Assembly: GCF_000327505.1 (NCBI RefSeq)
Contig: NC_019942.1
Location: forward strand, 124,001 to 188,000
Length of the DNA: 64,000 nucleotides
Source: Aciduliprofundum sp. MAR08-339
Lineage (GTDB): Archaea; Thermoplasmatota; Thermoplasmata; Thermoplasmatales; Aciduliprofundaceae
Reading direction: 5' to 3'
The number at the start of each line of letters is the position of its first letter. Positions within the stretch are counted from its first letter, which is position 1. The notes beneath the pieces are model-generated. The model did not search any database and was not told where the DNA came from. It saw only the letters and a list, made by a program, of their open reading frames with translations. Shown piece by piece: positions 33,345 to 59,656 of the stretch. The position numbers and the translations under genes are program-made.

Positions 33345-33358
33345 ATATATCACCTCCT

Positions 33359-37997: not shown

Positions 37998-38006
37998 TGG
38001 TTCTCA

Positions 38007-38338: not shown

Positions 38339-38356
38339 ATATTCATCACCTCCATT

Positions 38357-41614: not shown

Positions 41615-41617
41615 TGC

Positions 41618-41965: not shown

Positions 41966-41971
41966 GACTTA

Positions 41972-42133: not shown

Positions 42134-42135
42134 GA

Positions 42136-43857: not shown

Positions 43858-45374
43858 AGTATCCCCCCAGGAGGTTTGAAGGTGAAATAATTACTCAACT
43901 GTGCCTGGAGCCAGTCAAATCGTACAAATGATATCGCAACCAACACAAGCCCTATTATTCTGAATAGTGGACTGCGTGACGATAGTAAGAAGAGAAGTCC
44001 TATGAGTAAGAGTATTAGATGTGTCGTGTCTTCCCATGGCCACATGAACCACGGGGCGTAGATGGTATATCCTCCACCAGAGGCTTTATCAACGAAATAC
44101 TGAACTCTCGTTATGTTCCAGTTGCCATCCTTATCCTCTGATATTATGTTCAAATTTATGTTTCCATAATAATTGAGCTGTACTCCCCAGTCTGCAGATC
44201 CTCCATTCTTGATTACGAATGGCTTGAAATACGCAACTATAAGATTGGTTGCAGGATCTGGCATCTGATACATATTGTTTCCAAACCATGCTATTACCCA
44301 GACCTTGATCTGCGAAGAGTTGTCATCAAACGCCTTTATGTAAAAATGCACCTCAGCACCCTGTTTGAACAATCCGGTACGTGTTACGGTAACTCTTGGT
44401 GGATGTACATCGGGCTTGTTGTTATAAACTGTCCATGAGTATGAGCTTAACAATGAGTCTCCATATAATGATGTTATGATCCACACGTAAATTCCTGAAG
44501 AGTCATTTTGTGTGAAATTGTACCTGAATGTCTTTGTTACTCCGCTCCATTCTCCAAAATCCTTTATGAGTTTTCCTTCACTGTTTGTAACTTTGCCTTT
44601 TTCTACCTCAATTGGAGGAGTTGTGCCTCCATACCACAATGAAACATCCCATTTGCCCTCACTAAGAGATATTTCTATTGAAGTGTAAGGTTGCTCTCCC
44701 TCTTTCCATACAGCTGCATCATGCACATTCTTTACACTTGCAACTCCTGATGTGAAGTAACCGTATATCGTTGCAACTTTTTTGTATCCACTAGATGTAA
44801 CATAGACATAAACATCAATTCCAAATATGCCTGGATAAAACTCAGATGACGATGTTAAAAAACTTGTATTGGAATAATAACCCTGTGCATTCTCAGCAGA
44901 TCCAGCAGGGGCTGGGGATAGCTGTGACCATCCTGCCGTGATGTTGTAATAATGCACTGTTTTGTTTTCATCTTTCCATAGATCACCAACCCAACTTTTT
45001 TCTTGATAGAATATAAATCTTGCATTATGACCGATATCCACCTGATTAGCATACACGTGACCATAATTGAGAAAGAAACTTACACCTACACGCTGATTGT
45101 TGTATCCCGCCCAGATTGAGGCAAGGAAATGATACGGCTCATTGACAACCCCACTTTCATATGCATCATTATCTATGAATGTGATGAAGTCCTCTATGTA
45201 ATCCGTGCCAGCAATATATTTGTAACACGGCTTATAGATGTTATATGTTCCTGGAGTTGGACCCGTGGTTCCGCCGCCATCGATCATTGCATCTGCATTG
45301 AAAGAAAAAAGAGGAAGTAGGGAGGTAAGTGTGAGCAGCGAGATTATTGCCAGAATTTTCAGAGCCTTTGCCAT
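43854..45374 (-). CDS. Large secreted protein with C-terminal membrane helices, 506 aa, copy 1
   Basis: Signal peptide (about 1-28), about 400 residues of Tyr/Ser/Asn-rich beta sequence including an Ig-like segment (PPRVTVTRTGLFKQGAEVHF), then two helices (about 450-490). No catalytic motif noted. Its start overlaps the end of the 98-aa gene by 16 bp. Confidence 0.65.
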   Translation of the reverse strand: MAKALKILAIISLLTLTSLLPLFSFNADAMIDGGGTTGPTPGTYNIYKPCYKYIAGTDYIEDFITFIDNDAYESGVVNEPYHFLASIWAGYNNQRVGVSFFLNYGHVYANQVDIGHNARFIFYQEKSWVGDLWKDENKTVHYYNITAGWSQLSPAPAGSAENAQGYYSNTSFLTSSSEFYPGIFGIDVYVYVTSSGYKKVATIYGYFTSGVASVKNVHDAAVWKEGEQPYTSIEISLSEGKWDVSLWYGGTTPPIEVEKGKVTNSEGKLIKDFGEWSGVTKTFRYNFTQNDSSGIYVWIITSLYGDSLLSSYSWTVYNNKPDVHPPRVTVTRTGLFKQGAEVHFYIKAFDDNSSQIKVWVIAWFGNNMYQMPDPATNLIVAYFKPFVIKNGGSADWGVQLNYYGNINLNIISEDKDGNWNITRVQYFVDKASGGGYTIYAPWFMWPWEDTTHLILLLIGLLFLLSSRSPLFRIIGLVLVAISFVRFDWLQAQLSNYFTFKPPGGIL

Positions 45375-45655
45375 TTTTCGTTCCCTCCTTTTCGGTTCGT
45401 TTTCTTTCTTGTCTTCTTTTTCCGTTCCACAAGCTTGGGCTCTTTTCCTTCTTTCCAGAGTAATGCAAACCCAACTGCTATTATGAATAACGCAAAGAGA
45501 TTCGCCGCTATCGCACCTTTAACCCAGTCGCCATTGAACACGTTTACAACCCAGAAATGCAGATAAATGTCCGTTCCAAATGGAAGAATGTAAACTCCAA
45601 ATCCGAAGAGTATGAATCCAGCAAACGTTAAAATTGCACCTGCTGCCTTGCCCAT
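45359..45655 (-). CDS. Small two-helix membrane protein with basic tail, 98 aa, copy 1
   Basis: Helices about 5-25 and 48-68, then a strongly basic tail (ERKKKTRKKTNRKGG). Follows the 83-aa gene with no gap (TAAATG). Two-helix proteins of this size are the main virion proteins of archaeal spindle-shaped viruses; the match is by architecture only. Confidence 0.65.
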   Translation of the reverse strand: MGKAAGAILTFAGFILFGFGVYILPFGTDIYLHFWVVNVFNGDWVKGAIAANLFALFIIAVGFALLWKEGKEPKLVERKKKTRKKTNRKGGNEKWQRL

Positions 45656-45907
45656 TTATCCACCTCCTTCAAGATAACGTGCCATTCCTTTCAGCACCTG
45701 GGCAAATCCAGATTTAACGTCCACGCCAAAACCTTGCAGGGCAAAAATTGCAAGTAACACTATTATTATCCAGCCCCAAAACGGTATCGCTGCGAGAAAC
45801 GGCACAAATCTCACAACGAGAAGCTTCATTATCACTGAAACCACGAAGGCTATGAAAAATGCGATCGCAATAAAAATGGTAAAGGCTATGAAGTCCAAAG
45901 TAACCAC
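45656..45907 (-). CDS. Small two-helix membrane protein, 83 aa, copy 1
   Basis: GTG start. Two long hydrophobic helices (about 8-30 and 36-60) with a short turn, then a polar end. Architecture like the major coat protein of spindle-shaped archaeal viruses. Preceded by a 27-codon membrane peptide that overlaps its start. Confidence 0.65.
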   Translation of the reverse strand: MVTLDFIAFTIFIAIAFFIAFVVSVIMKLLVVRFVPFLAAIPFWGWIIIVLLAIFALQGFGVDVKSGFAQVLKGMARYLEGGG

Positions 45908-45969
45908 CCCGATATGCCACCCAGAACGGCGGTCGTTAGAAGCAAGAAAGAATAAAGAACGGAAAGCAT
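45886..45969 (-). CDS. Tiny membrane peptide, 27 aa, copy 1
   Basis: MLSVLYSFLLLTTAVLGG and one further hydrophobic stretch: a single membrane helix. It begins 1 bp after the stop of the LamG protein, with GGAGGCGGTGA in front, and overlaps the 83-aa start. Could be a real peptide or a translation-coupling device. Confidence 0.4.
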   Translation of the reverse strand: MLSVLYSFLLLTTAVLGGISGWLLWTS

Positions 45970-45970
45970 T

Positions 45971-47845
45971 TCACCGCCTCCGCCCGACAAGCAGTAGTAC
46001 GACTACAGCGGCAGCCAGGAGCATCCAGACACGCACAGCATAGCCACCGATTGTTATCTTCGTGTTCAGAATGTTCCAGATTGCGCTTGCATTTCCAGTT
46101 GGCATGCCTGCTCCACCTGTGCCGTTCGTTGTACCGTTATTTCCACCCGTACCGTTGTCTCCTCCGCCACCACTGTTATTGCTACTGCTGTTGGATATCA
46201 CGTTGCTCGTATCTGGTGCGGTAAACGCTGTCGAAGTGTATGCAATATGCCATGTTCCGTCGCTGTTCATGTATGAATATATTATGTTCACCGTGTTGTC
46301 ATATATCCAGAATGTTGATTTATAAATGCCTGCTGTAGATAATGTGTTGGAATTTGTCTGAACGGGAGTAGAATAGCCAGTCCAGTTCAGGCCGTCATCG
46401 CTTTCGAGCCAGAAATTTGCGCGTGGAGTGCCGCCACTGGTGCCAACCTGGCAGAACGTGGCAAGCATGTAATATTTGTTCCCTGCCTTCCTGACTTCCA
46501 GATGCCAGAACTGATATGTCGTGTTGTCGTAAGTCACTGTTACAGGTGCACTGGTGCCCACTTTTGTCCAGTGAATTCCATCTGTGGAGGTGTAATATGC
46601 AATTACCCGTTGGCCGTTTACATCTGATTGTCCCCACATTCTAAAAACGCCGTTATCGTATATTATCGATTGAGACAGGAGTGAATCAGTTGTCAGAACT
46701 AGTTGAGGCTGACTCCAGTGATGAGCGTCTTCACTTGTAATGAGGTAGATGTAAGTTCCATTGGAAGAAGAACCTCTAAAATACAGGTAAAACTGGCCGT
46801 TGGCGTATAGTAAATTAGGGTCTGAAAGATAGTTCATGTTCAATTCCGATGGTGTCACGAGCGGATTAGACACGCCGTCCTCTGTCCAGTGTACTAAGTC
46901 GTTTGAAAATGCTATGCTCGGATTCTCATACTGATTTTCTGTGTTGGGATATGGTGTGATTGCCATCACGTAGTGGTAACCGGCTGGGCTGTTGTCTGGG
47001 AAATACACCACGGAAGGATGTACGAACTGCGTTTGACCGGCAATCGTGGCTGATATTTCTGTTCCGGCACCGATAGTGAAGGGAGAACCAGATATCCAAG
47101 ATACTGATAATGCATTAGTAGTTTCTCCGCCGTTTCCTCCGCCGCTGGATTGCCCGCCTATTTGGTTCTGCACATCTGTAATTTCATCGCTGGTCAGTAC
47201 ACGATTATACGCCGCTATAAAAGAATAATCCACATCTGATTGGTCGTATGTTCCCGGTGAACAGCCGATATAGAAGGAATAGAGCCCGCTTGTCGCAATA
47301 GCGCTGAGATTATTTCTCTCATTGCCGTTCACGGATACGGAGAAGTAGGTGGAAGTTTGTTTTAGAACAATAAAGTATTCTGTATTCACGTTCACTGTTA
47401 TGTTTGTGTTGTAGCCGGTTGAACCATATCTTACATATAGATTGTTGTCAGTGTAAAAATAGACGGATATTATTATTCCAGATGAGTTTTTGATTTGGAG
47501 TGCTGAAATGGTGCTGCCAAGGGATGATGGAAGAGTCGGTATGGAAACATCAAGTATTATTGTGTAATCGGTGGAAAGCGTAGCATTTGTTACCACACGT
47601 TGACCAGTATCGAAATGAATGCTATTATTGTTCCATGTGGGCGTTCCCTCAATTTGCCCGTTGTTTCCGTTTCCACTTGCATCGATTATCTCGGTTCCAT
47701 TCTGCTGCGAACTGCCCTTGTAGAAGTCGTACTCGAAAAGTATATCGCTCTGCGTGATTGCTGCGTGTGCTCCGCCTGCACCGAAGATTGCAAACGCCGA
47801 GAACACAAAAAATGAGATGATGAGTAATGCTCCAATCTTGTTCAT
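45971..47845 (-). CDS. LamG plus propeller surface protein with C-terminal anchor, 624 aa, copy 1
   Basis: Signal peptide from ATG 47845 (MNKIGALLIISFFVFS). A LamG/concanavalin-like domain (about 25-225) is marked by DASGNGNNGQIEGTPTW. A five-blade GH43/sialidase-like propeller follows (about 245-545), with NDLVHWTEDG, LSDPNLLYANGQFYLYF and DGIHWTKVG. A Ser/Asn/Gly linker leads to a C-terminal membrane helix (VWMLLAAAVVVLLL) and Arg-Arg-Arg. LamG proteins occur in PAV1-like viruses. Likely glycan binding or cleaving at the host surface. Copy 2 is frameshifted near the end. Confidence 0.8.
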   Translation of the reverse strand: MNKIGALLIISFFVFSAFAIFGAGGAHAAITQSDILFEYDFYKGSSQQNGTEIIDASGNGNNGQIEGTPTWNNNSIHFDTGQRVVTNATLSTDYTIILDVSIPTLPSSLGSTISALQIKNSSGIIISVYFYTDNNLYVRYGSTGYNTNITVNVNTEYFIVLKQTSTYFSVSVNGNERNNLSAIATSGLYSFYIGCSPGTYDQSDVDYSFIAAYNRVLTSDEITDVQNQIGGQSSGGGNGGETTNALSVSWISGSPFTIGAGTEISATIAGQTQFVHPSVVYFPDNSPAGYHYVMAITPYPNTENQYENPSIAFSNDLVHWTEDGVSNPLVTPSELNMNYLSDPNLLYANGQFYLYFRGSSSNGTYIYLITSEDAHHWSQPQLVLTTDSLLSQSIIYDNGVFRMWGQSDVNGQRVIAYYTSTDGIHWTKVGTSAPVTVTYDNTTYQFWHLEVRKAGNKYYMLATFCQVGTSGGTPRANFWLESDDGLNWTGYSTPVQTNSNTLSTAGIYKSTFWIYDNTVNIIYSYMNSDGTWHIAYTSTAFTAPDTSNVISNSSSNNSGGGGDNGTGGNNGTTNGTGGAGMPTGNASAIWNILNTKITIGGYAVRVWMLLAAAVVVLLLVGRRR

Positions 47846-47855
47846 TGCCACCACC

Positions 47856-48593
47856 TCAGAGCCAGTGCTGCACAATGTACGCAAAGATCAGAAGCAAGAT
47901 TCCAAACGCTGCTGAGAATTTCGCAACATCCTCATGTGTCTTCTCCTTCGCAATGTAGATAACTGCACCAACTATCAGCATGAATATCCCAACACCCACA
48001 AGCAGCGTGTTCAGAGTCGCATTGTAGAGCGTGATGTTGTTCACATCCATGTTGAAATATGCATAACCCCAGGAGATCACAAAAAGCACGAATCCAAGCA
48101 AAACTGCGTACTTTGCCACATCATGGTGCTTTTTGGCACCGAAGAAATAGAGTGGAATACCTACAGCAAGCAAGAATAACGACGTGTACAGCAGATATGA
48201 GTTGAACTGCAAATACTGCTTTATGTCTACCGTTCCGCCTCCGCCTGATGTGCTCTCAATTGTGATGTATACCTCTTCACTCTTGTTCGTCTCGTTACCG
48301 TTTACAACCGCCGTGACATAATAGTAATATGTGTGCCCTACCGTAACATTCGTGTCTATGTATGTCGTGTTTGTTGTGTTCGCATAATAACTCTCATTCC
48401 CTGACGAGTTGCCCCTATATATCTTGTATAATGTTGCATTCGTTACCGGGTTCCATGATAGCGTTACGTTCCCGTTGCTGTATGTTGCTGTTAAGCCTTC
48501 TGGAGCCAAGGCATGCACTGCTGGAGAAAACATAAATGCTGCAATCACTAACGCAAGAGCAATAAAAATAAAGCTGAGTATGCTCTTACGCAT
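47856..48593 (-). CDS. Fibronectin type III membrane protein, 245 aa, copy 1
   Basis: Signal/anchor segment (MRKSILSFIFIALALVIAAF) from ATG 48593, an FN3 domain (about 30-118: APEGLTATYSNGNVTLSWNP, YKIYRGNSSG, GHTYYYYVTAV), then four to five membrane helices. Many Asn-x-Thr sites. First gene of the main structural-type operon, with its own TATA box. A longer frame from 48620 is also open. Confidence 0.72.
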   Translation of the reverse strand: MRKSILSFIFIALALVIAAFMFSPAVHALAPEGLTATYSNGNVTLSWNPVTNATLYKIYRGNSSGNESYYANTTNTTYIDTNVTVGHTYYYYVTAVVNGNETNKSEEVYITIESTSGGGGTVDIKQYLQFNSYLLYTSLFLLAVGIPLYFFGAKKHHDVAKYAVLLGFVLFVISWGYAYFNMDVNNITLYNATLNTLLVGVGIFMLIVGAVIYIAKEKTHEDVAKFSAAFGILLLIFAYIVQHWL

Positions 48594-48644
48594 CCCATCC
48601 CTTCTGACATGTGTTCGCATACAGCATGATTATTATGTTTCTCC

Positions 48645-48655
48645 TTTAAATAAAC
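48645..48655 (-). promoter_or_regulatory. TATA box of the structural-type operon, copy 1
   Basis: On the minus strand GTTTATTTAAA, predicting a start near 48620 for transcription of the FN3, LamG and downstream genes. Confidence 0.5.
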
Positions 48656-48684
48656 TTGAAAGTTGAAGGAAACAAGCAGAGCCT

Positions 48685-48939
48685 TTAAAATACTATGAGA
48701 ATTTGCAATCTCGATTTTTGACCCCCTCCTCTGCTCTTGTTGGCCCTTGGATAGTCATAGCTCACTATGCCTGAGATGATTAACTTCTCTCTCCTCGTCA
48801 GCGGCTCTCCTTTTAGAGCTTCTGCAATTTTGTAAATATCATCTAAACTTATCGTCTCCCGAAGGGTTATCGTTGCAGATAACCTCATCGCTTCCTCAAT
48901 GATTTTGCGTATCTGTCCGCGCTTGAGCTCTCTCACCAT
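48685..48939 (-). CDS. Small helical protein, 84 aa
   Basis: Basic and helical (MVRELKRGQIRKIIEEAMRL), possibly DNA-binding. Overlaps the 76-aa gene by 7 bp. Only copy 1 is in the window. Confidence 0.6.
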   Translation of the reverse strand: MVRELKRGQIRKIIEEAMRLSATITLRETISLDDIYKIAEALKGEPLTRREKLIISGIVSYDYPRANKSRGGGQKSRLQILIVF

Positions 48940-49163
48940 TCTGTGTACACCTCATACATTTTATCTTTCATAGCTCGAATGAATGCCTCAATATCTCCAT
49001 CCGCTTCCAGCCAGATAAAACGCTTGCCTAACTCTCTTAATGTGCCATACTGTAGAAATTTGACTCTTGTCTTCGTATCATATGCAATGTTTACAATGTC
49101 CTCAACCTTTAATTTGTATGACGCAACCGATACCTTCCCATTCCAGAATAAAAGAATCTTCAT
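48933..49163 (-). CDS. Hypothetical protein, 76 aa
   Basis: Alpha/beta small protein (MKILLFWNGKVSVASYKLKV; WLEADGDIEAFIRAMKDKM). 4-bp overlap with the regulator upstream. Confidence 0.6.
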   Translation of the reverse strand: MKILLFWNGKVSVASYKLKVEDIVNIAYDTKTRVKFLQYGTLRELGKRFIWLEADGDIEAFIRAMKDKMYEVYTEW

Positions 49164-50086
49164 GCGTATCCCTCCACCTCCTCTAAAATTTCTTCGCTCC
49201 TGGATTCCAGGTCCTGCGAAGATTTCTTAACATACTTCTCAGGGTGCAAAATCGCATCTACCACGCTCTTGCTTACCTCCATCGCTACTGTTTCAGCCAC
49301 TGCCTTTGAAATCTCTACCGCCAGCCCTGGAAATTGTTTTACCTCCTGCTCTATCTCCCTGATCTTCCTCGGCATCTCAAGGTATGTTATCACATCTTCC
49401 ACATCGTAAAAATGCAACGTGCCCGGCTCTGGCGTGCTGTCTATCGCTCCATGCTCTGTCACCACTACCTGCTTCTTTGATACTTCTTCAGCTACAGGAT
49501 CTCCCAGGATCTCCCATTTTGGTTTGCCTATCTGTACAGGATCCCCTAACTCATATCCTGCTGCTTCTTCCAGGAGACGCTTTACATTCAGCACCGTCTC
49601 AAGCGCCTTGTATGCCGCTCGCCATGGGTCCGGGTCCTCTACTCCAAATCTTATGATTATGTGCTTCGTCGTCTTCTCAACATTCACATTTCCAATCCAG
49701 GTGTATTTCCTCACCCATCCCTTTAACGCAACCTCATGATCATACCAGAAATCTGCATCCTTCTTTATCGCCATCTTGAACTGAACATTATGCACCCCTC
49801 GCACCCTCGGCATCTTCGCACCTGCCTCACCCCCTGTGATGCTTTTGTAAACTTCCTCCTTCCCCTTCTCTGTGAGCCTGTAATACTTAACATGCTTGAG
49901 CGTGAGAGATTGTTGAAATGCCGTTTTCTCTATGTCTAATTCTATTAATCCCATCTCTATCAATTTTTTTATCCTTTGCGAAATTGCACCTTTAGATAAT
50001 CCTACCTTAAATGCTATTTCTCCAGCATTCATACCTTGCTGGATCATTTTTAAAATCTCATAATTGGAAATTTTTTTACTGGGCAT
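49160..50086 (-). CDS. Winged-helix transcription regulator, 308 aa
   Basis: MarR-like winged helix at the N-terminus (NYEILKMIQQGMNAGEIAFKVGLSKGAISQRIKKL, in pieces), then a roughly 150-residue domain with HNVQFKMAIKKDADFWYDHE and a long helical C-terminus. Start at ATG 50086. Three copies of TCTAAACTT lie just upstream, so it probably controls itself and the virion-type genes. Confidence 0.75.
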   Translation of the reverse strand: MPSKKISNYEILKMIQQGMNAGEIAFKVGLSKGAISQRIKKLIEMGLIELDIEKTAFQQSLTLKHVKYYRLTEKGKEEVYKSITGGEAGAKMPRVRGVHNVQFKMAIKKDADFWYDHEVALKGWVRKYTWIGNVNVEKTTKHIIIRFGVEDPDPWRAAYKALETVLNVKRLLEEAAGYELGDPVQIGKPKWEILGDPVAEEVSKKQVVVTEHGAIDSTPEPGTLHFYDVEDVITYLEMPRKIREIEQEVKQFPGLAVEISKAVAETVAMEVSKSVVDAILHPEKYVKKSSQDLESRSEEILEEVEGYA

Positions 50087-50120
50087 CTTATGCAACACCC
50101 CCCATCAATGCCCATGCCCC

Positions 50121-50153
50121 AAGTTTAGAATAATCTAAACTTCTTCTAAACTT
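50121..50153. promoter_or_regulatory. Operator with three half-sites before the winged-helix regulator
   Basis: Perfect inverted repeat AAGTTTAGA-ATAA-TCTAAACTT (50121-50142) followed by a direct third half-site TCTAAACTT (50145-50153), 11 bp from the second. The half-sites face the same helix side. A TATA-like TTAAAAAAAG (about 50157-50168) adjoins, so binding would cover the transcription start. Confidence 0.7.
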
Positions 50154-50173
50154 CGAGTTAAAAAAAGAGAAAA

Positions 50174-50482
50174 TCAAGCCTTCACCCCCAGCATCTCAAG
50201 CAAGAATGCAATCCTCTGCGGTGTGATCTGATACAATCTCAGATCTATGATATCTTCCCTTGTTAAAATGAAATAAAGCCCTCTCAGATCATCCATTCGT
50301 TCTGTGTTAAAAATAGCCCCTGTTATTGTTTTCTCTGTGATTAGTTCTTCTGCGGTCTTGAAATCATCTGTTCTGGAAACTCTCCATACAGCTACGATAT
50401 ACCTGGGTAGATCTGGGAATCCAACAGGGTTCTGGAAAAACGCACGGATCTTCTCCAGTATAACCCTGTTGTCCAGGATCAT
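50174..50482 (-). CDS. Hypothetical protein, 102 aa
   Basis: Unrecognised alpha/beta protein (RYIVAVWRVSRTDDFKTAEE; REDIIDLRLYQITPQRIAFL). ATGA-coupled to the 42-aa gene. Last gene of the leftward operon that contains the integrase. Confidence 0.6.
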   Translation of the reverse strand: MILDNRVILEKIRAFFQNPVGFPDLPRYIVAVWRVSRTDDFKTAEELITEKTITGAIFNTERMDDLRGLYFILTREDIIDLRLYQITPQRIAFLLEMLGVKA

Positions 50483-50607
50483 ATTATCCTCGCCTCACCC
50501 TCTCCAAATAGTTTAAGAAACTCTACCGCTTCTTGTGGCCCACCATAGAACTTAATGATCTTGTCCCTTACCTCTATGTAAATTACCAATTCTTTCAACC
50601 TCCTCAC
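50479..50607 (-). CDS. Small protein, 42 aa, in the integrase operon
   Basis: Start at GTG 50607 (or the TTG 9 bases on, behind GAGGAGG). Peptide with strand and helix character (ELVIYIEVRDKIIKFYGGP). Overlaps the 35-aa gene in another frame and ends in an ATGA overlap with the 102-aa gene. Confidence 0.5.
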   Translation of the reverse strand: MRRLKELVIYIEVRDKIIKFYGGPQEAVEFLKLFGEGEARII

Positions 50608-50659
50608 CTTCCAGCATCTTCAAAATAACTACCCAGGGTTTTCTGTTCACCATTATCAT
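50552..50659 (-). CDS. Small protein, 35 aa, in the integrase operon
   Basis: ATG 50659 overlaps the stop of the attP-spanning gene (ATGA). Basic and short (VNRKPWVVILKMLEGEEVER). It overlaps the following 42-aa gene by 56 bp; one of the two may be untranslated. Confidence 0.4.
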   Translation of the reverse strand: MIMVNRKPWVVILKMLEGEEVERIGNLHRGKGQDH

Positions 50660-50865
50660 ATCTCTCCCTCCAAAAGAGCCAATAATTCTCCTTCTGTAGG
50701 GATTTTTGCATAACCTTTCTCTGCCCATTCCTCTAAGAGTTTCCTAAGATCTTCATCTCTAAAAATTGTATTTGGGTAAATCCGTTTGTAGTGCCTTAAA
50801 ATTCTCTCAATCCGGTCGGCCCCATTTCTTATTTTACCGGTCCCATCCAAATTTGAACTTTTCAC
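50656..50865 (-). CDS. attP-spanning small protein, 69 aa (intact at tandem junction)
   Basis: Start at GTG 50865, 5 nt after GGAGGTGAT, directly after the integrase stop of copy 2. The attachment core 50809-50823 encodes part of RNGADRI (about residues 13-19). The rest is helical and acidic (FRDEDLRKLLEEWAEKGY). The gene is whole only where two units meet or in the circle; at the chromosomal junction it is truncated. Confidence 0.65.
   Translation of the reverse strand: MKSSNLDGTGKIRNGADRIERILRHYKRIYPNTIFRDEDLRKLLEEWAEKGYAKIPTEGELLALLEGEI
50809..50823. repeat. Attachment core at the junction of the two copies
   Basis: Same 15 bp as 33288-33302. To its left is element sequence, not tRNA, so this is an attP-like junction, and no second tRNA is formed. 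Confidence 0.85.
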
Positions 50866-50879
50866 ATATATCACCTCCT

Positions 50880-51737
50880 CTATTTTTCCTTTATTTCGTG
50901 GGTTTCTACATCATATCCTCCAAATAGGTTATCCTTCTCGTAAATCTGAGATAGAGTTATTGAGCTCAGTAATGACTTGAGATAAATCTGAGTGGTGGAT
51001 AGCTTTGCATGGCCCAAATACTGCCTTATTGCCTCAAGATCCACACCCTTTAAATAAAGATCCACGGCCCTCCAATGTCGGCAACTGTGAGGATGCAATG
51101 GCTTACCCAAGGCCTTCGCTATGGTCCAGAAAATAGTCCCTATGGTCTTTATGTGGATCCTCCCTTGGGATGTGGTGAAAAGTGCATATTTGTCAGATGG
51201 AATCCTGTAATATTTGATATAATCATAGGTTAATTTCCATACCTCCTTTGGCATTGGAATTTTCCTAGATACATTCATCTTACTGTCTCTTATGCTGATC
51301 CACCTTTCATTAACATCTCCTACATTTAAATTAGCAATCTCGGATCTCCTCAAGGCTAAAAACGCATACCTTACAATTAACTGGTTTCTCCTGGTAATCC
51401 CTGGATTAGGCCATTTGAAGTTTAATATGAATTCCATATCTTCCTCCGATGGAATATATATCTCCCTTACGCTACGGGTGGCCCAGGTTTTAAGCTTTAT
51501 ATCCTTACCCAGAAATCTCATATATGCGTTTATCGCCTTTATGTCATGGTTTAATGCAACTTTACCCCTTTGCATCTCCTGATCCATTAGCCATAATGTG
51601 AGATCAGTTTTTGAGATGTTGTTAAGATCTATCTGCTGAAAAATCCTCCTCAGTCTACGATCATAATCGTCTATCGTTGCTCGCCGATATCTCTCGTTAT
51701 ACATCCACATCAGAAATTCATCACGGTTATAACTCAC
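50880..51737 (-). CDS. int: Tyrosine recombinase (integrase), copy 2
   Basis: Identical protein to the copy-1 integrase, with the same R-H-R-H-Y residues. Here the downstream attP-spanning gene is complete, so this copy sits in the undisturbed operon. Confidence 0.93.
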   Translation of the reverse strand: MSYNRDEFLMWMYNERYRRATIDDYDRRLRRIFQQIDLNNISKTDLTLWLMDQEMQRGKVALNHDIKAINAYMRFLGKDIKLKTWATRSVREIYIPSEEDMEFILNFKWPNPGITRRNQLIVRYAFLALRRSEIANLNVGDVNERWISIRDSKMNVSRKIPMPKEVWKLTYDYIKYYRIPSDKYALFTTSQGRIHIKTIGTIFWTIAKALGKPLHPHSCRHWRAVDLYLKGVDLEAIRQYLGHAKLSTTQIYLKSLLSSITLSQIYEKDNLFGGYDVETHEIKEK

Positions 51738-52144
51738 TCCCTCACCCCAACATCAGGGCCCGGGGAGTACTTCAGCTCCCCAAGGCCAGACATCCCATCC
51801 TCTTCCAGCATCTCAAAAAGATAAGATCTTCCTTCATCGGTTATTCGGTACACCCAGATTACACGCCCGTGATTGCTTGGAACCCCTGACTTCACCACAC
51901 CAACCTCTTTGAGATAACCTTTCCTTTTCAGTGCCCCGATCACGGCACCCAGCACCTTCTTGTTCACTCCAGGAGGGCAGTACTCTCGTAGGTCATCAGC
52001 CGTGATTGTTTCCTTTTCAGATGCGAGTTTCAAGGCAATGATTTTCAGCTGCTCATAAACTGGACGGCCCTCAAAATAGCGTGGCAAAACAAAAGATGCA
52101 AACGGATCCTTGTAATCGTCCAGCCGCAGCTGCCCACGCATCAT
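51734..52144 (-). CDS. Winged-helix protein, 136 aa, copy 2
   Basis: Identical in translation to 34213-34623. GTGA overlap with the integrase. Confidence 0.65.
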   Translation of the reverse strand: MMRGQLRLDDYKDPFASFVLPRYFEGRPVYEQLKIIALKLASEKETITADDLREYCPPGVNKKVLGAVIGALKRKGYLKEVGVVKSGVPSNHGRVIWVYRITDEGRSYLFEMLEEDGMSGLGELKYSPGPDVGVRE

Positions 52145-52242
52145 TACTCGTCACCATTAATCTTTTTGCGCATCTCAAAGCACTCTTCAAGCGTTCTGCC
52201 GCGGCAGTACTCATCCAAAAACTCCTTCTCTCTCAGCTTCAT
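52144..52242 (-). CDS. Small charged protein, 32 aa, copy 2
   Basis: Same peptide and same coupled junctions as at 34623-34721. Confidence 0.5.
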   Translation of the reverse strand: MKLREKEFLDEYCRGRTLEECFEMRKKINGDE

Positions 52243-52424
52243 TCCCCGCTCACCCCTGCATCTATCCACTCGCCTGTGAGTGGGTGTAGCATCTTCACAT
52301 TGCGAAAACGGAGATGCCCGAATCTTCGCCTGAACTCTGTGAGAAAATCCTCGCCAACAACATCAACCTCAGTCCAATAGCCATCTTTTCCGTAACTATT
52401 CCAGATTTCACATTTGTATATCAT
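52239..52424 (-). CDS. Hypothetical protein, 61 aa, copy 2 (Ala56)
   Basis: Same as the copy-1 protein except Ala for Val at residue 56 (codon GCA for GTA). Confidence 0.6.
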   Translation of the reverse strand: MIYKCEIWNSYGKDGYWTEVDVVGEDFLTEFRRRFGHLRFRNVKMLHPLTGEWIDAGVSGE

Positions 52425-52597
52425 TCCCCGCTCACCTCCGCAAACTCACTCAAAAATTTCTGACCAGATCCAGTTAGATGATCCGTGTAATCAAATGCGA
52501 TTACTCCCCCACATCTTTTACATCTGTATTCCTTAAATCCCCCGTGAAAACCAATATATTCCCAGTCATTTGCTCCGCAATAGGGGCACTCTCTCAC
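52421..52597 (-). CDS. Zinc-ribbon protein, 58 aa, copy 2 (GTG start)
   Basis: Same protein with two CxxC knuckles. The start codon is GTG where copy 1 has ATG; the change is silent in the overlapping upstream gene (GAG for GAA). Confidence 0.68.
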   Translation of the reverse strand: MRECPYCGANDWEYIGFHGGFKEYRCKRCGGVIAFDYTDHLTGSGQKFLSEFAEVSGE

Positions 52598-52800
52598 TCA
52601 CTCACCTCCGCAAACTCGTTCAGCTTCGCCCTGTCGAACACGCCAAGCCGTTCAAGCCTCAGAATCGTGAGCCTCACTATTGTGTGCACGGTCTCATATT
52701 CCACATACATCAGATCCGGGCGATGATCCACCTCGTTCACGAAAATGTCATCTATGATCCGCTGCACTATTCCCTCAGGTACGGTAACATCAGGGAGCAT
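52594..52800 (-). CDS. Helical hypothetical protein, 68 aa, copy 2
   Basis: Same protein as 35073-35279. The last sense codon differs silently. Confidence 0.6.
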   Translation of the reverse strand: MLPDVTVPEGIVQRIIDDIFVNEVDHRPDLMYVEYETVHTIVRLTILRLERLGVFDRAKLNEFAEVSE

Positions 52801-52942
52801 CCGCCGCCACCTCCTGCGCTGTGTGGATCACATCTTTGATCTCTATCTTCACAATGTCTCCTGGCTCAATGTTCAAAATCTCTCTCACGTGCTTTGGTAT
52901 TGCTATCCTCCCTAACTCCTGCACCTTTAACACCAACTCCAT
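52790..52942 (-). CDS. AbrB/SpoVT-family DNA-binding protein, copy 2
   Basis: Same 50 residues as at 35269-35421. First gene of the complete operon that runs through the integrase and across attP to 50174. Confidence 0.82.
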   Translation of the reverse strand: MELVLKVQELGRIAIPKHVREILNIEPGDIVKIEIKDVIHTAQEVAADAP

Positions 52943-52962
52943 TCCTATCACCTTATATTTTA

Positions 52963-53018
52963 CAATTATAAGTAATACTTTTAAAGTATTTAAAAGTTTT
53001 TATTTTGCAATTATAAGT
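52963..53018. promoter_or_regulatory. Divergent control region with repeats, copy 2
   Basis: Same CAATTATAAGT pair and AATACTT-TTA-AAGTATT inverted repeat as in copy 1. Confidence 0.55.
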
Positions 53019-53062
53019 TATAAAATTAAATCCTAAATATTATAGTTACATAATTATCAGTT

Positions 53063-53617
53063 GTGAGTAGTAAGTCATCTTTAAATGAAAAGCATGCGGC
53101 AACAATCTTAAAAGAACTATTAAATTCAGATAAGCCAATTTATATCTCATCTCTTCAATCTTTAATTAAAAATTATTATGCTCTACAAAATACCGTTAAT
53201 AAACTTGCAAACGAAGGTTATATTGAAATGATAGAAACACAATACAAGGGTAGATCTGCAAAAATGGTAAAGCTCACAAAGAAGGGCCGTATTATAGCGG
53301 AGAAACTGAAAGAGATTGATGAGATGGCTTCCATGCCTGAAGACGAGCTTGAAGCACAAAGAAAGAGGTTGCACTGGATTGTGGATATCAACACCTACAC
53401 GGACCACATAACCGCATACGACATTCACGGTGGAAAGAAGGAAATCTTCAACATCTGGCTCAAGCCAAATGGCAAATATCTTACTTTGTATTGCGATTTG
53501 TGCCATTCTGATTCCTGCTTTCACATTGATTGGGCCCTCCAGGACCCGGTGATAGGTCCCGAGATAAGAGAGATTGCCAAAAAGAAGGGCCTCAAGATAA
53601 AGAATGATGGAGAATAG
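53063..53617 (+). CDS. Winged-helix regulator with SWIM-like zinc motif, copy 2
   Basis: Identical in translation to 35542-36096, GTG start. Confidence 0.7.
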   Translation: MSSKSSLNEKHAATILKELLNSDKPIYISSLQSLIKNYYALQNTVNKLANEGYIEMIETQYKGRSAKMVKLTKKGRIIAEKLKEIDEMASMPEDELEAQRKRLHWIVDINTYTDHITAYDIHGGKKEIFNIWLKPNGKYLTLYCDLCHSDSCFHIDWALQDPVIGPEIREIAKKKGLKIKNDGE

Positions 53618-53632
53618 TATGAGGTGGCTTGA

Positions 53633-54568
53633 ATGGGACTATTTAAAAAAATCGGGAAAAGTATGGGCCGGGCCATAGTCAAGACTGGCAAGGCCACGGC
53701 TGCAGCCATAAAGAAGAAAAATCTTCAGAAGCAGGTAAAGCGGATGATTTTAGAGAGATATACCACCAGAGATCTTAAAAAGATGATAAAGGATTATGAT
53801 CTTGAAGGACCAGAAATGCCCGAAAGAGGATATTACAAAAAGGAAGATTATGTGAACTATGTATACAAACTTTTCAAGTTGAAAGAGGTTATTGAAGATG
53901 CAAAAGATAGAAAAATACCAATCAAAGACATTATGGACTATTACATTGAAGAAATGGAGAAAATAGAGGAAGAGGCCCAGATCTCACCGCAGGAGAGTAA
54001 AGTTTCAGAGGAGGAAGAAGGAGTTGAGGAAATTGAGTATGAGCCTGAGCAATATGTAGCTCCTGAAAGGGGACAGTACAGGCCTCCACCCACAAGTGAA
54101 AAAGTTGAATGGAAATTTGAAGATCCTGATGAAACATTCTTTTATGGACTGTTAAGGGATATTGAGGAGGATTATGCTCCTACTGCTGCAGATACTTCTT
54201 TTGTAGATGAAATGGCATTTAAGGAGCATCTAAAAGCATATCTCATATGGAAATACAAAGGACATAGGATTACTTTCCAGCCAAAATCTGTGGATCTAAT
54301 TATTGATGATAAGTTTGGATTGGAACTGAAATTTGCATATAATCGTTCAACTTTATCAAAGGGATATGAAGAAGTAAAAAGATATAAAAGAAAAGTCAAA
54401 TATCTGGCAATTGTAATCTTGGATCCTGGGAAATTACCAAGGGATTACTTTAATGAAGTCATTGAAGATTACAAAGATATGGGCGCAGAGGTTATTGTAA
54501 TAAGAGGAGGTAAAAAAAGAGATTTTAGAAAAAAGAAAGAGATCTGGGCTGCTCAGAGAATAAAATGA
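53633..54568 (+). CDS. PD-(D/E)XK nuclease-like protein, copy 2
   Basis: Identical in translation to 36112-37047, with the D...E-x-K core kept. Confidence 0.65.
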   Translation: MGLFKKIGKSMGRAIVKTGKATAAAIKKKNLQKQVKRMILERYTTRDLKKMIKDYDLEGPEMPERGYYKKEDYVNYVYKLFKLKEVIEDAKDRKIPIKDIMDYYIEEMEKIEEEAQISPQESKVSEEEEGVEEIEYEPEQYVAPERGQYRPPPTSEKVEWKFEDPDETFFYGLLRDIEEDYAPTAADTSFVDEMAFKEHLKAYLIWKYKGHRITFQPKSVDLIIDDKFGLELKFAYNRSTLSKGYEEVKRYKRKVKYLAIVILDPGKLPRDYFNEVIEDYKDMGAEVIVIRGGKKRDFRKKKEIWAAQRIK

Positions 54569-54753
54569 CCCCCAAGGAACTTTTAGGCTGGATCCTTTTC
54601 TCTCTCCTCTTCTGGGGCTTTGGCATATTTGGGGTCTGGCTCTATCTGCACGGAATAGCTGCAGCGCTTGCTCTGGCCATTGCCGCCTTTGCTGGGTGGG
54701 CCGTTTACATTTTCATCTTCTTGGTTTTGCCTTTCCTTCAACTTCAAAGTTGA
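54565..54753 (+). CDS. Small two-helix membrane protein, 62 aa, copy 2
   Basis: Identical to 37044-37232; ATGA overlap with the nuclease-like gene. Confidence 0.6.
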   Translation: MTPKELLGWILFSLLFWGFGIFGVWLYLHGIAAALALAIAAFAGWAVYIFIFLVLPFLQLQS

Positions 54754-54927
54754 ATATCTATATATACATATTACATGGTAAGAGAAAAATCTTCCCCACC
54801 ACACACCCCACAGCGATAATATAAGAATTTGAAAAGTTGTGTAAAATACGGGATTTGTGAGATAAAAACAGTCATGAACCGTCCGTTTGCTGACAAAAAC
54901 CCCGGAAAAAGGGCGGAAATTTTTTTC

Positions 54928-55518
54928 TTATGATTTCCGGTAATACAGGATAGATCTTATTGCACTATCTGGGATTCCTAACTTCTCAGAAATCTCTCTC
55001 CTGGAGAATCCTCTTTGTGCCAATCTTCTCACCTTCTCTGCAATCTCATCTGGATACTTGGCCCTTCTCCCTATGTGTTTACCTTCTTTCTTTGCCCTCT
55101 CTAGTCCAAGCTTCGTTCTCTCTCCTATACTCTCCCTCTCGTATTGTGCAAACGCAATAAGGATATTTGCAACGAATCTCCCTGCCGAGGTACTCATATC
55201 CAAACCTTCTACCACGGAGGAGATCTTGGGACCTACCCGCTCAAGTATTTTCTGAAAATCTATGATTGAACGGGTCAATCTGTCCAGGCGCCATACTAAA
55301 AGAATGTCCGCTCCGCCCTCCTCTAAAAAAGTTAAAGCACGCTGGAGCTGCTCTCTGTTCTCTGCACTCTTGCCGCTCTTTGCCTCTTTGAATTCCAAAA
55401 CCACATCCCAGCCCTTCGCCTTCGCATACGCTCTGCATGCCTCTATCTGTGCCTCTATGCTGTAGCCCTTCCGCTTCTGCTCCTCCGTGCTCACCCTGGC
55501 GTAGATGATCGCTTTCAT
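54928..55518 (-). CDS. Serine recombinase, copy 2
   Basis: Identical to 37407-37997, catalytic Ser10 present. Confidence 0.9.
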   Translation of the reverse strand: MKAIIYARVSTEEQKRKGYSIEAQIEACRAYAKAKGWDVVLEFKEAKSGKSAENREQLQRALTFLEEGGADILLVWRLDRLTRSIIDFQKILERVGPKISSVVEGLDMSTSAGRFVANILIAFAQYERESIGERTKLGLERAKKEGKHIGRRAKYPDEIAEKVRRLAQRGFSRREISEKLGIPDSAIRSILYYRKS

Positions 55519-55527
55519 TGGTTCTCA

Positions 55528-55626
55528 CTACGGGTGCGATAGCATCCATGTATACGCAGCCATTCCAAAGAAAAATGCAATGCCAATAAGATGAATTATA
55601 ATCAGCATTTTCTCTCCTTTTTTCAT
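55528..55626 (-). CDS. Tiny membrane protein, 32 aa, copy 2
   Basis: Same one-helix peptide as 38007-38105. Confidence 0.5.
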   Translation of the reverse strand: MKKGEKMLIIIHLIGIAFFFGMAAYTWMLSHP

Positions 55627-55859
55627 GAGGCTACCCTCCTTTTTATTTTTTCCTTTCTCTTGTAGATGGCATAATTTACTATCATCAGAAATGTCAAAAT
55701 CACTCCACCAGTCATCCACCATATCCACATTTTCTCTGTGGATGATGCCGTCAGGGCCGACGCTATATACTGCCCCAAACCAACCGCCTCTATTACTATT
55801 ATAGCCCCAAATATCCCGAATATAGTACTTATTTTCCATTTCAAATTTTTCCATCCCAT
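55623..55859 (-). CDS. Small membrane protein, 78 aa, copy 2
   Basis: Identical to 38102-38338. Confidence 0.6.
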   Translation of the reverse strand: MGWKNLKWKISTIFGIFGAIIVIEAVGLGQYIASALTASSTEKMWIWWMTGGVILTFLMIVNYAIYKRKEKIKRRVAS

Positions 55860-55877
55860 ATATTCATCACCTCCATT

Positions 55878-56972
55878 CTATTTATTTTTTTCTACTTCTT
55901 CATCCAAGAGCCCAACCAACTTCTTCCAATTCTTGTGTTTTGCCCGTATGCTCCTCTCGCTTAGATTTATGCCCTCTCTCTCCAGGATCAGCTTTATCTC
56001 TTTCGTACCCAAACCTTTTTCATATAACCGCCCTATGCGCTCAAGAATGTACCTCTCCTTCTCGCTCTTCACCATCATTAATAATGTATCTTCCTTGGCT
56101 CTCTTCGCAGCTTCTAAAAGCCACTGTGGTGGATTGGTCTCATGTATGAATATTTTTGTTCCTTTGCCTGGGACCGGGGCAAATACAAGCCCTTCGTTGA
56201 TGTTCAGACTTGTACAGATTTTCAAAATCTCCTGCCACCCTTTCGGTAAGTACTGCATTGTATTTGCAAGAAGTTCTGCCGTGGTCCATCGGAACATCTT
56301 TATGTCTGCTGTATCTCTCAGCGTGCTCTCAAGTGAACCAGTACGTATCACATTATAGATCACCCATGTGCTCAAGTGCCTGGAGCGCAGGGCTTGAAGG
56401 TTCATCTCCACATTCGCATTGCTAAGTGCTTTTTTAGACATGAGCGCCGGGGCTAACTCATTGTAAAGCACGATTTTCTTTCTTCCATCCAGTGGTGGCA
56501 AACTGTAATATTTCTTTATGATTATCCTCTCCCCAAGCTCTGGCTTCATCTTTATAATTTGCTCACCAAGTCCATCAACATCTCCATACACGTACATCAT
56601 TGCATCAGGCATCTTCTCAAGCGCCTGAAGGGATAGGGTCCAGGCGGTAATTGTTTTGCCAGAATGACGGTTCCCGATAATGGCTAAAAGCTGCGGATAC
56701 TTCAAAAATGCACGCATCAACTCCCCTGGAGATTTTGGAATTATGACAAGGTGTCTATCAGATACTACCCGGTACTTGAACCCATATTTCTCCCTGAATA
56801 CAACACCAAACAGAACTGCTTTTCTACGATCCAAATCCCCTCGGCGGTAGCCCTCTTCAGATAATAGTATTGCCTTCTTCAGAAAAGGGGAAATATCCTC
56901 AGGTAGAAGACGACTCTCACGAAGCCAAAAATCGTATTCTCTCATTTTTTGTGCTACATATGTATAGCTCAT
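55878..56972 (-). CDS. P-loop ATPase of packaging/DNA-pump type, copy 2
   Basis: Identical to 38357-39451; Walker A GNRHSGKT intact. Confidence 0.72.
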   Translation of the reverse strand: MSYTYVAQKMREYDFWLRESRLLPEDISPFLKKAILLSEEGYRRGDLDRRKAVLFGVVFREKYGFKYRVVSDRHLVIIPKSPGELMRAFLKYPQLLAIIGNRHSGKTITAWTLSLQALEKMPDAMMYVYGDVDGLGEQIIKMKPELGERIIIKKYYSLPPLDGRKKIVLYNELAPALMSKKALSNANVEMNLQALRSRHLSTWVIYNVIRTGSLESTLRDTADIKMFRWTTAELLANTMQYLPKGWQEILKICTSLNINEGLVFAPVPGKGTKIFIHETNPPQWLLEAAKRAKEDTLLMMVKSEKERYILERIGRLYEKGLGTKEIKLILEREGINLSERSIRAKHKNWKKLVGLLDEEVEKNK

Positions 56973-57331
56973 ACCTTCTCCCCCTCCATGGCTCGTACAT
57001 CATTCTCTTTTAGCGTGTTGATAACCTGAGCATATGGATCCGTCGGGCGGAGGTCTTCCAGTACCGTCTTCTTGGCCTTGTTCTTTATGATACCCAGGTA
57101 TTTCTTGAAAGTTCTGAGATCCTTTAGATTCGCATCCTCTGGGATCTCTACTTCAAAGAATTTTGCAACTTCGAGGAGATCGTCTATGTCTCCAGACGGT
57201 ATGCAGAATTCACTTGTCGGCAGAGAATTCAACTTCTTTATCTCTGTCTGAAACACTATGATGTAATTCTCCAGTAACGCCTCATGCCATTGCTGGTATA
57301 CGCTCCCTTTACTCCTCTCCACTTCCGCCAT
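56969..57331 (-). CDS. Hypothetical protein, 120 aa, copy 2
   Basis: Identical to 39448-39810, coupled to the ATPase. Confidence 0.6.
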   Translation of the reverse strand: MAEVERSKGSVYQQWHEALLENYIIVFQTEIKKLNSLPTSEFCIPSGDIDDLLEVAKFFEVEIPEDANLKDLRTFKKYLGIIKNKAKKTVLEDLRPTDPYAQVINTLKENDVRAMEGEKV

Positions 57332-58139
57332 CTCCAAGCCACCTCTTTGCTACTGTTAGCATCACCAAAATAAAAATTAGCACACCTACATACCATGGCC
57401 AGCTTCGCCCAGCCAAGGGATACCTGTGTATTTGCTCATAATCATATTCTGCAGGATAGCCCTGAAATTGAAAGTGTGCAAGATCTACACTCATTCCATT
57501 ACGCCATCCGTATTGATCAACAACATCAACGATGAGTATTCCAGTCTTCCAAGATGCAGGTACATTAATTGTTAAATTTGTTACGTTTGTAAATACATCA
57601 ACAAGGTTCTCCTGTATGCCATCCCACACATAGATTTCAAGCCGGAATGTGGTATTTGGATCTATCTGTCCTGTTTGATTTAAAACCTTGCTCTTGAATA
57701 TAATCTTTGAGCCATCATTTGAAAAGGTTAATTCGTATGGCAAAGGTGCAGGAACTACTGCAAAATCTTCTTTTATAATCATTGATTTTATGCCATTGTA
57801 ATCTGTATAAAGTGTGATGTTATAATGCCCTTCAGCCATCGCTGGAAGGTATATTGTATTTTGTCTGCCTGGAGGAATCTGTATTGTTGTCTTATAGGTG
57901 TAGTTCACATTGATTCCATTTATCATTATGTATAGCTGTAGATTTCCATAAATCGGTTTGTTGTCATGGAATGGGATGGCAATCACATGAATTGGAGCGC
58001 TGACATTCATAATGTACATTGGAGAAACATTGGCACGAAACACCACATAGGACCCGCTGGAGGCATGAATTTGAGGCGAAAAACCTAGGGTTACAGCTAA
58101 AAAAATGAGAAGTATTAGGGTGGTTCTCTTACTCATTCT
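57309..58139 (-). CDS. Secreted, membrane-anchored beta protein, 276 aa, copy 2
   Basis: Identical to 39788-40618, with signal peptide and C-terminal helix. Confidence 0.65.
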   Translation of the reverse strand, partial: RMSKRTTLILLIFLAVTLGFSPQIHASSGSYVVFRANVSPMYIMNVSAPIHVIAIPFHDNKPIYGNLQLYIMINGINVNYTYKTTIQIPPGRQNTIYLPAMAEGHYNITLYTDYNGIKSMIIKEDFAVVPAPLPYELTFSNDGSKIIFKSKVLNQTGQIDPNTTFRLEIYVWDGIQENLVDVFTNVTNLTINVPASWKTGILIVDVVDQYGWRNGMSVDLAHFQFQGYPAEYDYEQIHRYPLAGRSWPWYVGVLIFILVMLTVAKRWLGDGGSGEE

Positions 58140-58503
58140 CAATTTTCTCCACCTCGCTGATTTTTGTGACCTCAAGGATGTATATCTTTCCACCAATTTT
58201 TATGAGTAAGTTGTTCTGAGGAATGTATGTGAACGTGTACTCTTTTTCCTGCATTCCTTGAAATGCCTCAGCCATCAATGCAAGAAAACTCTTTCTCTGT
58301 AAATTCTCATATTTTATTTGCATTGCAAGAATGTACATCAGCCACAGGAAAATCACAGCTCCTATGTAGTTTGGTAAAGAGCCTTGCAAATCTCCAGATA
58401 TGAGCACGTTCACCACTTCGGCTATTGATACAAATGCAATTGCCATAAGTAATAATGTTGTCCACTTCGATTTCATCAAATACTCCAGAAACTTCTCATT
58501 CAC
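58129..58503 (-). CDS. Membrane protein, 124 aa, copy 2
   Basis: Identical to 40608-40982. Confidence 0.6.
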   Translation of the reverse strand: MNEKFLEYLMKSKWTTLLLMAIAFVSIAEVVNVLISGDLQGSLPNYIGAVIFLWLMYILAMQIKYENLQRKSFLALMAEAFQGMQEKEYTFTYIPQNNLLIKIGGKIYILEVTKISEVEKIENE

Positions 58504-59135
58504 TCTTCACCACCTCTACCATGTCTTGCTTTTTCAAGATCTATTAACTCATCTAATGTGAGTGTCGTTTCTTTACGCTCTTTCTCGGCCCTGTACTTCT
58601 TTAGTTCTTCGATAAGACTCTCTGCTACACGTTGCCACATTATTTCCTGATTTACCTCTAGATTCTTTGTCTGATACACAACATAAGATCCTTGTGGCGT
58701 TCTAGATACCTCTGCTATTACAGTCCACCTTAATCCCCTATTAACTACTTTCTTTTTACTCATTAGATATGTTAATCCATTCACAAGCTTGAAATAGCGT
58801 AATCCTCCCTCTTCCCAAGTTCTTACATACAATTTCCGTTCCTTTGTGCTTGGTATCTCAATCACTGGTACTGTGAGCCATCCAACCCAAGCATCGATAA
58901 ATACGAAGATCAAAAACCACCACATCTGAAAATTAATAGGAGTATGAAGAAATTGGAGTATGAGTAACCATAACTCAAAGTATAAAGCTGAAATTTGCTC
59001 TGGCCATAGTAAAACTAGCCAAGATGTTGTTATTAGCAGAGCTATTAAGAAAATGTAGTACCACCAAGAGGTCTTGATTAGCTTTTTCGGTTTTTCTTTG
59101 GGTTTTGGCTTGAAAAACCGTGAAATTCTGCCCAT
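58500..59135 (-). CDS. Membrane protein, 211 aa, copy 2
   Basis: Identical to 40979-41614. Confidence 0.6.
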   Translation of the reverse strand: MGRISRFFKPKPKEKPKKLIKTSWWYYIFLIALLITTSWLVLLWPEQISALYFELWLLILQFLHTPINFQMWWFLIFVFIDAWVGWLTVPVIEIPSTKERKLYVRTWEEGGLRYFKLVNGLTYLMSKKKVVNRGLRWTVIAEVSRTPQGSYVVYQTKNLEVNQEIMWQRVAESLIEELKKYRAEKERKETTLTLDELIDLEKARHGRGGEE

Positions 59136-59138
59136 TGC

Positions 59139-59486
59139 TCACCACCCCATGAAAAGCTTTGATATTGCCGCACCAATAATCGCCACTATTAGAATCATTA
59201 TAATTGCTATCTTGCGTTTTTTGTTCTCTCCAAAGAATGATGTCTTCACTTCTGTTGATTTTGCGGGTATATATCCGACCTTTTTGGCAAATTCATCAAG
59301 CTTCTCTGACATTTCCCTTAACTCTTCAGTACTGATTCCTTTTGTCTTCGCCCCTGGAAAATATTTCCAGATCTTCTTAATATACTTCGCCCTCTTCCTC
59401 TCATCTTCTTCCTTTCTCTTCTCTTTCTCCTCTATTGCCCGCAGAACTGCATTAACTATCTTCTCAATCTCTACATCTTCAGCCAT
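59139..59486 (-). CDS. Coiled-coil protein with C-terminal membrane helix, copy 2
   Basis: Identical to 41618-41965. Confidence 0.6.
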   Translation of the reverse strand: MAEDVEIEKIVNAVLRAIEEKEKRKEEDERKRAKYIKKIWKYFPGAKTKGISTEELREMSEKLDEFAKKVGYIPAKSTEVKTSFFGENKKRKIAIIMILIVAIIGAAISKLFMGW

Positions 59487-59492
59487 GACTTA

Positions 59493-59654
59493 TCACCTCC
59501 TTAATATCTCCTCTAAAATCGTACCGATCTCTACCTTCAAATCTTCAAAAAATTGTGAAAACTTTATTCTTGAGGGTAAATAGTGCCTTACTGAAAACTT
59601 CCTAACTTCCTTGCCACTCTGAACCTTCACCAGTATCTTGATCTCATCTCCCAC
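59493..59654 (-). CDS. Small hypothetical protein, 53 aa, copy 2
   Basis: Same frame and GTG start as 41972-42133. Confidence 0.55.
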   Translation of the reverse strand: MGDEIKILVKVQSGKEVRKFSVRHYLPSRIKFSQFFEDLKVEIGTILEEILRR

Positions 59655-59656
59655 GA

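Follow-up and report, generated by a model that had tools for sequence, protein, structure and literature searches.

Several archaeal and bacterial elements offer points of comparison. In the haloarchaeal pleolipovirus SNJ2, circularisation creates orf26, a reading frame that spans attP, and ORF26 is translated; nonsense mutants of orf19-26 do not replicate, each gene being needed, and the replication operon is rebuilt only on excision (PMC13107129, NAR 2026). In the integration-dependent immunity of mycobacteriophages BPs and Brujita, as summarised in PMC4557955 (citing Broussard 2013), attP lies in the repressor gene and integration yields an active, truncated repressor. Transfer transcripts of Tn916 need joined ends (Celli and Trieu-Cuot 1998, as cited in PMC6540685). 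Finally, the "suicidal" archaeal integrases of the SSV1 type carry their att site within the integrase coding sequence, which is split on integration (PMC8371274).

Here we describe an element of Thermoplasmatota whose layout resembles that of SNJ2. Both encode an archaeal tyrosine integrase that targets tRNA genes, with a reading frame over attP directly 3′ of the integrase gene that is whole only when the ends are joined, and in both, circularisation brings genes from the opposite end of the provirus into line with the integrase operon. The likeness is one of layout. SNJ2 belongs to a different phylum (Halobacteria); its rejoined operon ends in a Rep-Arvir initiator, and a Pfam search at E ≤ 1 gave no Rep-domain match for the helix-turn-helix (HTH) proteins that follow here (312 aa in the element under study, 446 and 443 aa in its relatives in G007 and G020); and its operon starts inside the integrase gene, whereas the best promoter here precedes an AbrB gene. 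The present elements, moreover, use several tRNA targets, have cores read in three frames and include a resident dimer. As in BPs and Brujita, attP falls within a reading frame beside the integrase gene and integration changes the product, but in the opposite sense: here it leaves a stub and a mostly startless C-terminal part (the C-half), so that the intact form belongs to the circle. Truncation would, in the predicted structure, remove the whole folded part, and family searches found no DNA-binding family, unlike what a truncated, active repressor would present. Transcription through joined ends would reach a second gene block, as in Tn916, which differs in being a bacterial conjugative element. 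To our knowledge, no conserved gene spans the Tn916 joint. The SSV1-type systems likewise have an att site in coding sequence that integration splits, but there the integrase gene itself is cut, whereas here the integrase is complete both at attL and at the tandem junction. An attP-spanning, circle-dependent gene is already known in SNJ2; the Thermoplasmatota case, in another phylum, is new.

The window, a stretch of 64,000 nucleotides (G000:C1:124001-188000), is part of a complete, single-contig genome of 1,437,090 bp of the DHVE2/Aciduliprofundum type (Table 1). The 3′ end of a tRNA-Ile(GAU) gene, missed by the default tRNA scan and found by ARAGORN with introns allowed, carries a 17.5-kb element as two copies in tandem. 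A 16-bp core, AATCCGGTCGGCCCCA, stands at 33288 (attL), 50809 (junction) and 68331 (attR). Beyond attR the chromosome continues with an NMNAT-type gene, and in a genome of the same genus (G006) this tRNA also lies near the NMNAT gene, with the element absent. Units A and B differ at just four places (34737/52258, 35076/52597, a one-base indel at 46091/63612, and 49854/67376). An assembly collapse or artefact appears unlikely as the source of the tandem: the genome is one contig, the units show these four differences, and the junction can be told apart from either end. The second difference changes the start of the zinc-ribbon gene from ATG in unit A to GTG in unit B, and the inserted base in unit B alters the C-terminus of a 637-aa surface-type protein, with loss of its hydrophobic tail. 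The element also encodes a serine resolvase-family protein (PF00239; 37407-37997) as its second site-specific recombinase.

Table 1. Features of the tandem element, its target and the operon at the junction (positions in the window).
Feature	Position	Strand	Basis
tRNA-Ile(GAU) with intron, integration target (attB side of attL)	33185..33303	+	ARAGORN, introns allowed
attL core AATCCGGTCGGCCCCA	33288..33303	+	exact repeat of 50809 and 68331
Remnant of attP gene at attL, 19 codons, TGA in tRNA antisense	33285..33344	-	frame translation
Element unit A, 17,521 bp	33288..50808	.	repeat comparison
Element unit B, 17,522 bp	50809..64000 in window, true end 68330 outside window	.	read from G000:C1
attP-type core at tandem junction	50809..50824	.	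exact repeat
BRE/TATA-like promoter AAAACTTTTAAATA, score 11.0	52987..53000	-	learned promoter model
AbrB/MazE-like regulator, first gene of operon	52790..52951	-	ORF list, domain search
68-aa ORF	52594..52800	-	ORF list
Zinc-ribbon protein, 58 aa, GTG start here	52421..52597	-	ORF list, unit comparison
61-aa ORF	52239..52424	-	ORF list
32-aa ORF, ATG start inside a 41-aa frame	52144..52242	-	ORF list
Winged-helix-like protein, 136 aa	51734..52144	-	ORF list, family search
Tyrosine integrase, 285 aa	50880..51737	-	PF00589
attP-spanning gene, 69 aa, GTG start	50656..50865	-	ORF list, homologues
Parts of the 69-aa gene: N-half; core-encoded; C-half	50825-50865; 50809-50824; 50656-50808	-	ORF list
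T-loop-like motif GTTCAAATT in N-half, 25 bp from core	50850..50858 (approximate)	-	motif comparison
35-aa ORF, 4-nt overlap with attP gene	50552..50659	-	ORF list
42-aa ORF	50479..50607	-	ORF list
102-aa ORF, last gene ahead of T-tract	50174..50482	-	ORF list
T-tract (probable terminator), half-site, palindrome AAGTTTAGATTATTCTAAACTT	50121..50173	-	same layout in G009:C47, G018:C184
312-aa winged-helix protein after the cut operon	49160..50098	-	ORF list, domain search

At the tandem junction, genes for AbrB, a 68-aa protein, the zinc ribbon, 61- and 32-aa proteins, the winged helix, the integrase and proteins of 69, 35, 42 and 102 aa form one leftward run, as the original prediction had laid out, and all of its coordinates were confirmed. 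Neighbours mostly overlap by 1-11 nt, the exceptions being the 35- and 42-aa frames, which overlap by 56 nt, and a short gap of about 14 nt between integrase and 69-aa gene. Reading along the minus strand, GGAGGTGAT comes after the integrase stop (50880), and then the GTG at 50865. The integrase itself is a tyrosine recombinase (Phage_integrase, PF00589, E 6.4e-23, 81.8 bits vs a gathering score of 27.1). A promoter model trained on 60 divergent gene starts in 400 kb of the same genome, whose BRE/TATA sites cluster 30-36 nt upstream of start codons, found only the site at 52987-53000 (score 11.0, against a control 95th percentile of 6.7) and its one-base-shifted neighbour above the promoter threshold on the minus strand of 49000-53200. 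The next-best score there is 7.1 at 52168; this site could be an internal promoter and counts against our preferred explanation. No strong promoter-like site was found by the scan near the 69-aa gene (best 4.3), nor any score above 4.3 in the attR flank of the element. Overall, the scan supports a single operon starting at about 53,000.

The 69-codon frame runs across the core to 50656 and is whole at the junction. At attL the same frame reads VKSSNLDGTGKIRNGADRI and then stops (33344-33285), which bears out the earlier claim of a stop after 19 codons within the tRNA antisense; at attR no ATG, GTG or TTG stands ahead of the remainder. Judged by these frames, integration splits the attP-spanning gene. 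It had further been claimed that a single copy would part four genes from their promoter and 5′ end. For the element in the window this stands, the site at 53,000 being the only strong one, but it is not general. Here the attP gene is followed by the 35-, 42- and 102-aa frames, the T-tract, the palindrome and the gene for the 312-aa winged-helix protein. Four other loci have no genes like the 35-, 42- and 102-aa ones after the attP gene: directly 3′ of it come the T-tract and palindrome (G009:C47, G018:C184) or a palindrome and the HTH gene (G012, G022). In G007 and G020, small genes are followed by a 446- or 443-aa protein, with overlapping ends. Since the other downstream genes vary among members, the attP gene alone would be the unit that is always cut, with further genes cut in some members only. 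An integration-sensing switch, as originally predicted, is plausible and has an experimental precedent in SNJ2, but a switch of four genes is not the general rule.

Several observations concern the region beyond. The palindrome AAGTTTAGATTATTCTAAACTT (50121-50142) and a half-site precede the 312-aa HTH gene. This layout, though not its sequence, recurs in G018:C184 (GAGGTTTCC...GGAAACCTC), so a joint change of operator and regulator is possible. The structural model of the 312-aa protein is poor (pLDDT 55), and its viral structure matches are mostly winged helices. Homology between the 312- and 443-aa proteins, raised by their common end EVEGYA, was discarded when BLASTP found no other similarity; we infer that this end is the next gene's ribosome-binding site within coding sequence. 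A gene 88% like that for the 446-aa HTH protein lies beside tRNA-Arg(TCT) in G006 (L111), on a 14-kb stretch with no attP gene and no related integrase.

The attP gene is not an accident of one element, since the same small gene lies 3′ of the integrase at every readable integrase locus of the lineage, insertions in tRNA-Ile, Pro, Met, Lys and Asp included. Integrase relatives in the same archaeal family adjoin tRNA-Pro(GGG), tRNA-Met(CAU), tRNA-Lys(CTT), tRNA-Asp(GTC) and another intron-bearing tRNA (G009:C57); a relative at 81% lies on a 14.7-kb contig of a DHVE2 group archaeon. Some relatives sit on contigs with an intact junction: G009:C47, G018:C184, G011:C71 and, with one extra small ORF between integrase and attP gene, G017:C55. 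At nearly all loci, a small frame with a ribosome-binding site begins at or over the integrase stop and stays open through the tRNA antisense. When attL and attR were rejoined at their shared core of 14-21 bp, all eight clean pairs (Ile, Pro, Met, G009:C57/C116, two Lys-A, Lys-B and Asp) gave an open frame of 69-80 codons (69, 72, 72, 80, 80, 80, 80 and 70 residues) that continues into a homologous C-half. The cores differ and are translated in all three frames (GADRI, GAAEI, GAGRI, AGPPG, SGPGG, RARRE, RPGRD). With close relatives merged, about six of the eight pairs are independent, and the chance of such frame agreement is about (1/3)^6. The one out-of-frame exception, a mixed Lys pair in G007, consists of attL and C-half contigs that are not a clean pair (45-bp match, including the N-terminal part, or N-half).

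The stub left at attL measures 19-43 codons in six of the eight cases, and 78 and 114 codons in two Lys-A cases. On the other side, at four of the eight clean attR sites neither the upstream sequence nor the first 15 codons of the C-half contain a start codon; at three (Pro, Lys-A of G012, Lys-B of G015) an in-frame start precedes the C-half. Some attR flanks carry promoter-like sites, and the attR copy of G020 has both an in-frame ATG and a promoter-like site, besides two other attR sites with an in-frame start; integrated copies thus need not always be silent. The DNA outside this G020 attR (L047 8761-8990) encodes MKKCLDLNGTQPWKNGAAEI in frame with the C-half. It resembles an N-half of the same gene and may be left over from an earlier insertion, in which case even a single copy would have the gene restored. 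Elsewhere in the order, in other families (L015, L016, L018, L020 and L023), the integrase frame itself enters the tRNA antisense and stops there, so that integration would alter no more than the final residues of the integrase. This is a parallel means of placing coding sequence over attP.

The C-halves share a motif close to TGHWWEPSxxxILxFLEGEL, and dN/dS in related pairs (0.32 over 49 codons, 0.09, 0.18, 0.29 and 0.44) indicates that the part of the protein beyond the core is under purifying selection. In an AlphaFold model, the N-half is disordered and three helices begin at residue 15, which the core encodes (pLDDT 84-88); on this prediction, the functional part is on the attR side and the N-half mainly provides the start. 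The protein has no convincing Pfam or PHROG family match, Foldseek found no solved structure that resembles the three-helix model, and a search of the phage collection returned no match to the 69-aa protein and, for the integrase, only distant integrases in phages and plasmids. Scans of IMG/VR for free or viral copies, run with the integrase, an alignment of integrases and the HTH protein, returned no informative match; the attP proteins diverge too far from one another for their alignment to serve in such a scan. Weak matches to frames of about 85 aa in other families of the order were dropped after they were lost in a profile search.

Our preferred reading, to which we give a probability of roughly 0.6, is that of a circle-dependent, attP-spanning gene in the distal part of the integrase operon, which integration cuts and whose operon the tandem restores as a by-product. 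The arrangement could instead result from compactness: in a dense operon, a core that copies the tRNA would fall in coding sequence, be tolerated as a linker and be cut without any regulatory role. We regard this as unlikely, although it would fit the variation of the core-encoded residues in sequence and frame, the predicted disorder of the N-half, the tiny, overlapping 35- and 42-aa neighbours and the start regained by some attR copies. Against it, the frame is held across the core in every clean pair despite different targets, and the same layout is functional in SNJ2; moreover, an indifferent position predicts attP in gaps in some lineages, but there were none among the readable loci of this lineage.

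A constraint on DNA rather than protein appears less probable still. The N-half would then be an integrase arm region whose open frame is incidental, and only the C-half domain, which may start elsewhere, would matter. A T-loop-like motif of the GTTCRAATC type, in the opposite orientation to the T-loop of the tRNA, does occur within the coding sequence of 12 of 15 N-halves, 18-25 bp from the core; none of 2,000 joint shuffles reached its total match, for a consensus chosen after inspection. It is probably an integrase arm site, and we offer it as a lead. N-halves outside the Ile/Pro/Met group are also unlike one another. However, nearly all loci have a ribosome-binding site and a start codon where the integrase gene stops, and this start shares its frame with the C-half; SSNLxGTxK (CSNL in Pro) is conserved among the Ile/Pro/Met N-halves despite synonymous codon changes (TCA/TCG, TTG/CTG, ACC/ACG); and half of the clean attR sites lack any such alternative start. 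Control through the 3′ end of the integrase message has a precedent in lambda sib. Here the integrase transcript would end in element genes in the circle and in tRNA antisense at attL, which could alter its stability, but such control would leave the purifying selection on the C-half and the frame agreement unexplained, and we consider it very improbable as the reason for the cut.

The tandem junction restores one complete operon, and the dimer is most simply explained by a further integration event at this site or by replication across it. Junction-like remnants beside chromosomal genes (G011:C71, G007:C9, G008:C159, perhaps also G007:C52 and G020) suggest that tandem or hetero-tandem insertion is common. 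The original prediction that a dimer is kept to preserve a working set is not supported: the copy at this junction is intact, but the frame is open in the remnants of G011:C71 and G020 and broken in those of G007 (including C9) and G008 (C159). With about half of the junction remnants frame-broken, there is no sign among them of selection for the repaired gene.

In this lineage of integrative elements, a gene for a small protein closes the integrase operon or lies near its distal end, and attP falls within the first third of that gene. On integration, the attL side keeps the start, the ribosome-binding site and some 20-30 codons with the integrase, reading into tRNA antisense, and the attR side keeps the conserved part, predicted to form three helices, mostly without a start codon. 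With the start at attL and the folded part at attR, the whole protein, together with genes on the same transcript, could be made from the operon promoter only in the circle or a tandem. By analogy with the circle-dependent expression of SNJ2, the attP protein is most likely made, and acts, in the circle; it may help to replicate, maintain or control the free element, and interruption of its gene would keep the integrated copy quiet.

More tentatively, attP within a circle-only gene may be a recurrent, selected device, found with unrelated proteins in Halobacteria and Thermoplasmatota, that reads topology at the level of translation; resident dimers could then express the gene while integrated. 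What was a single published case in SNJ2 would then become an apparent wider rule for archaeal integrative elements, in which a recombination site in a reading frame ties expression to excision. The lineage offers material for testing this rule, namely a conserved family of proteins as yet without a name and several naturally occurring att pairs, and translation across the rebuilt attP provides a simple diagnostic for other proviruses.
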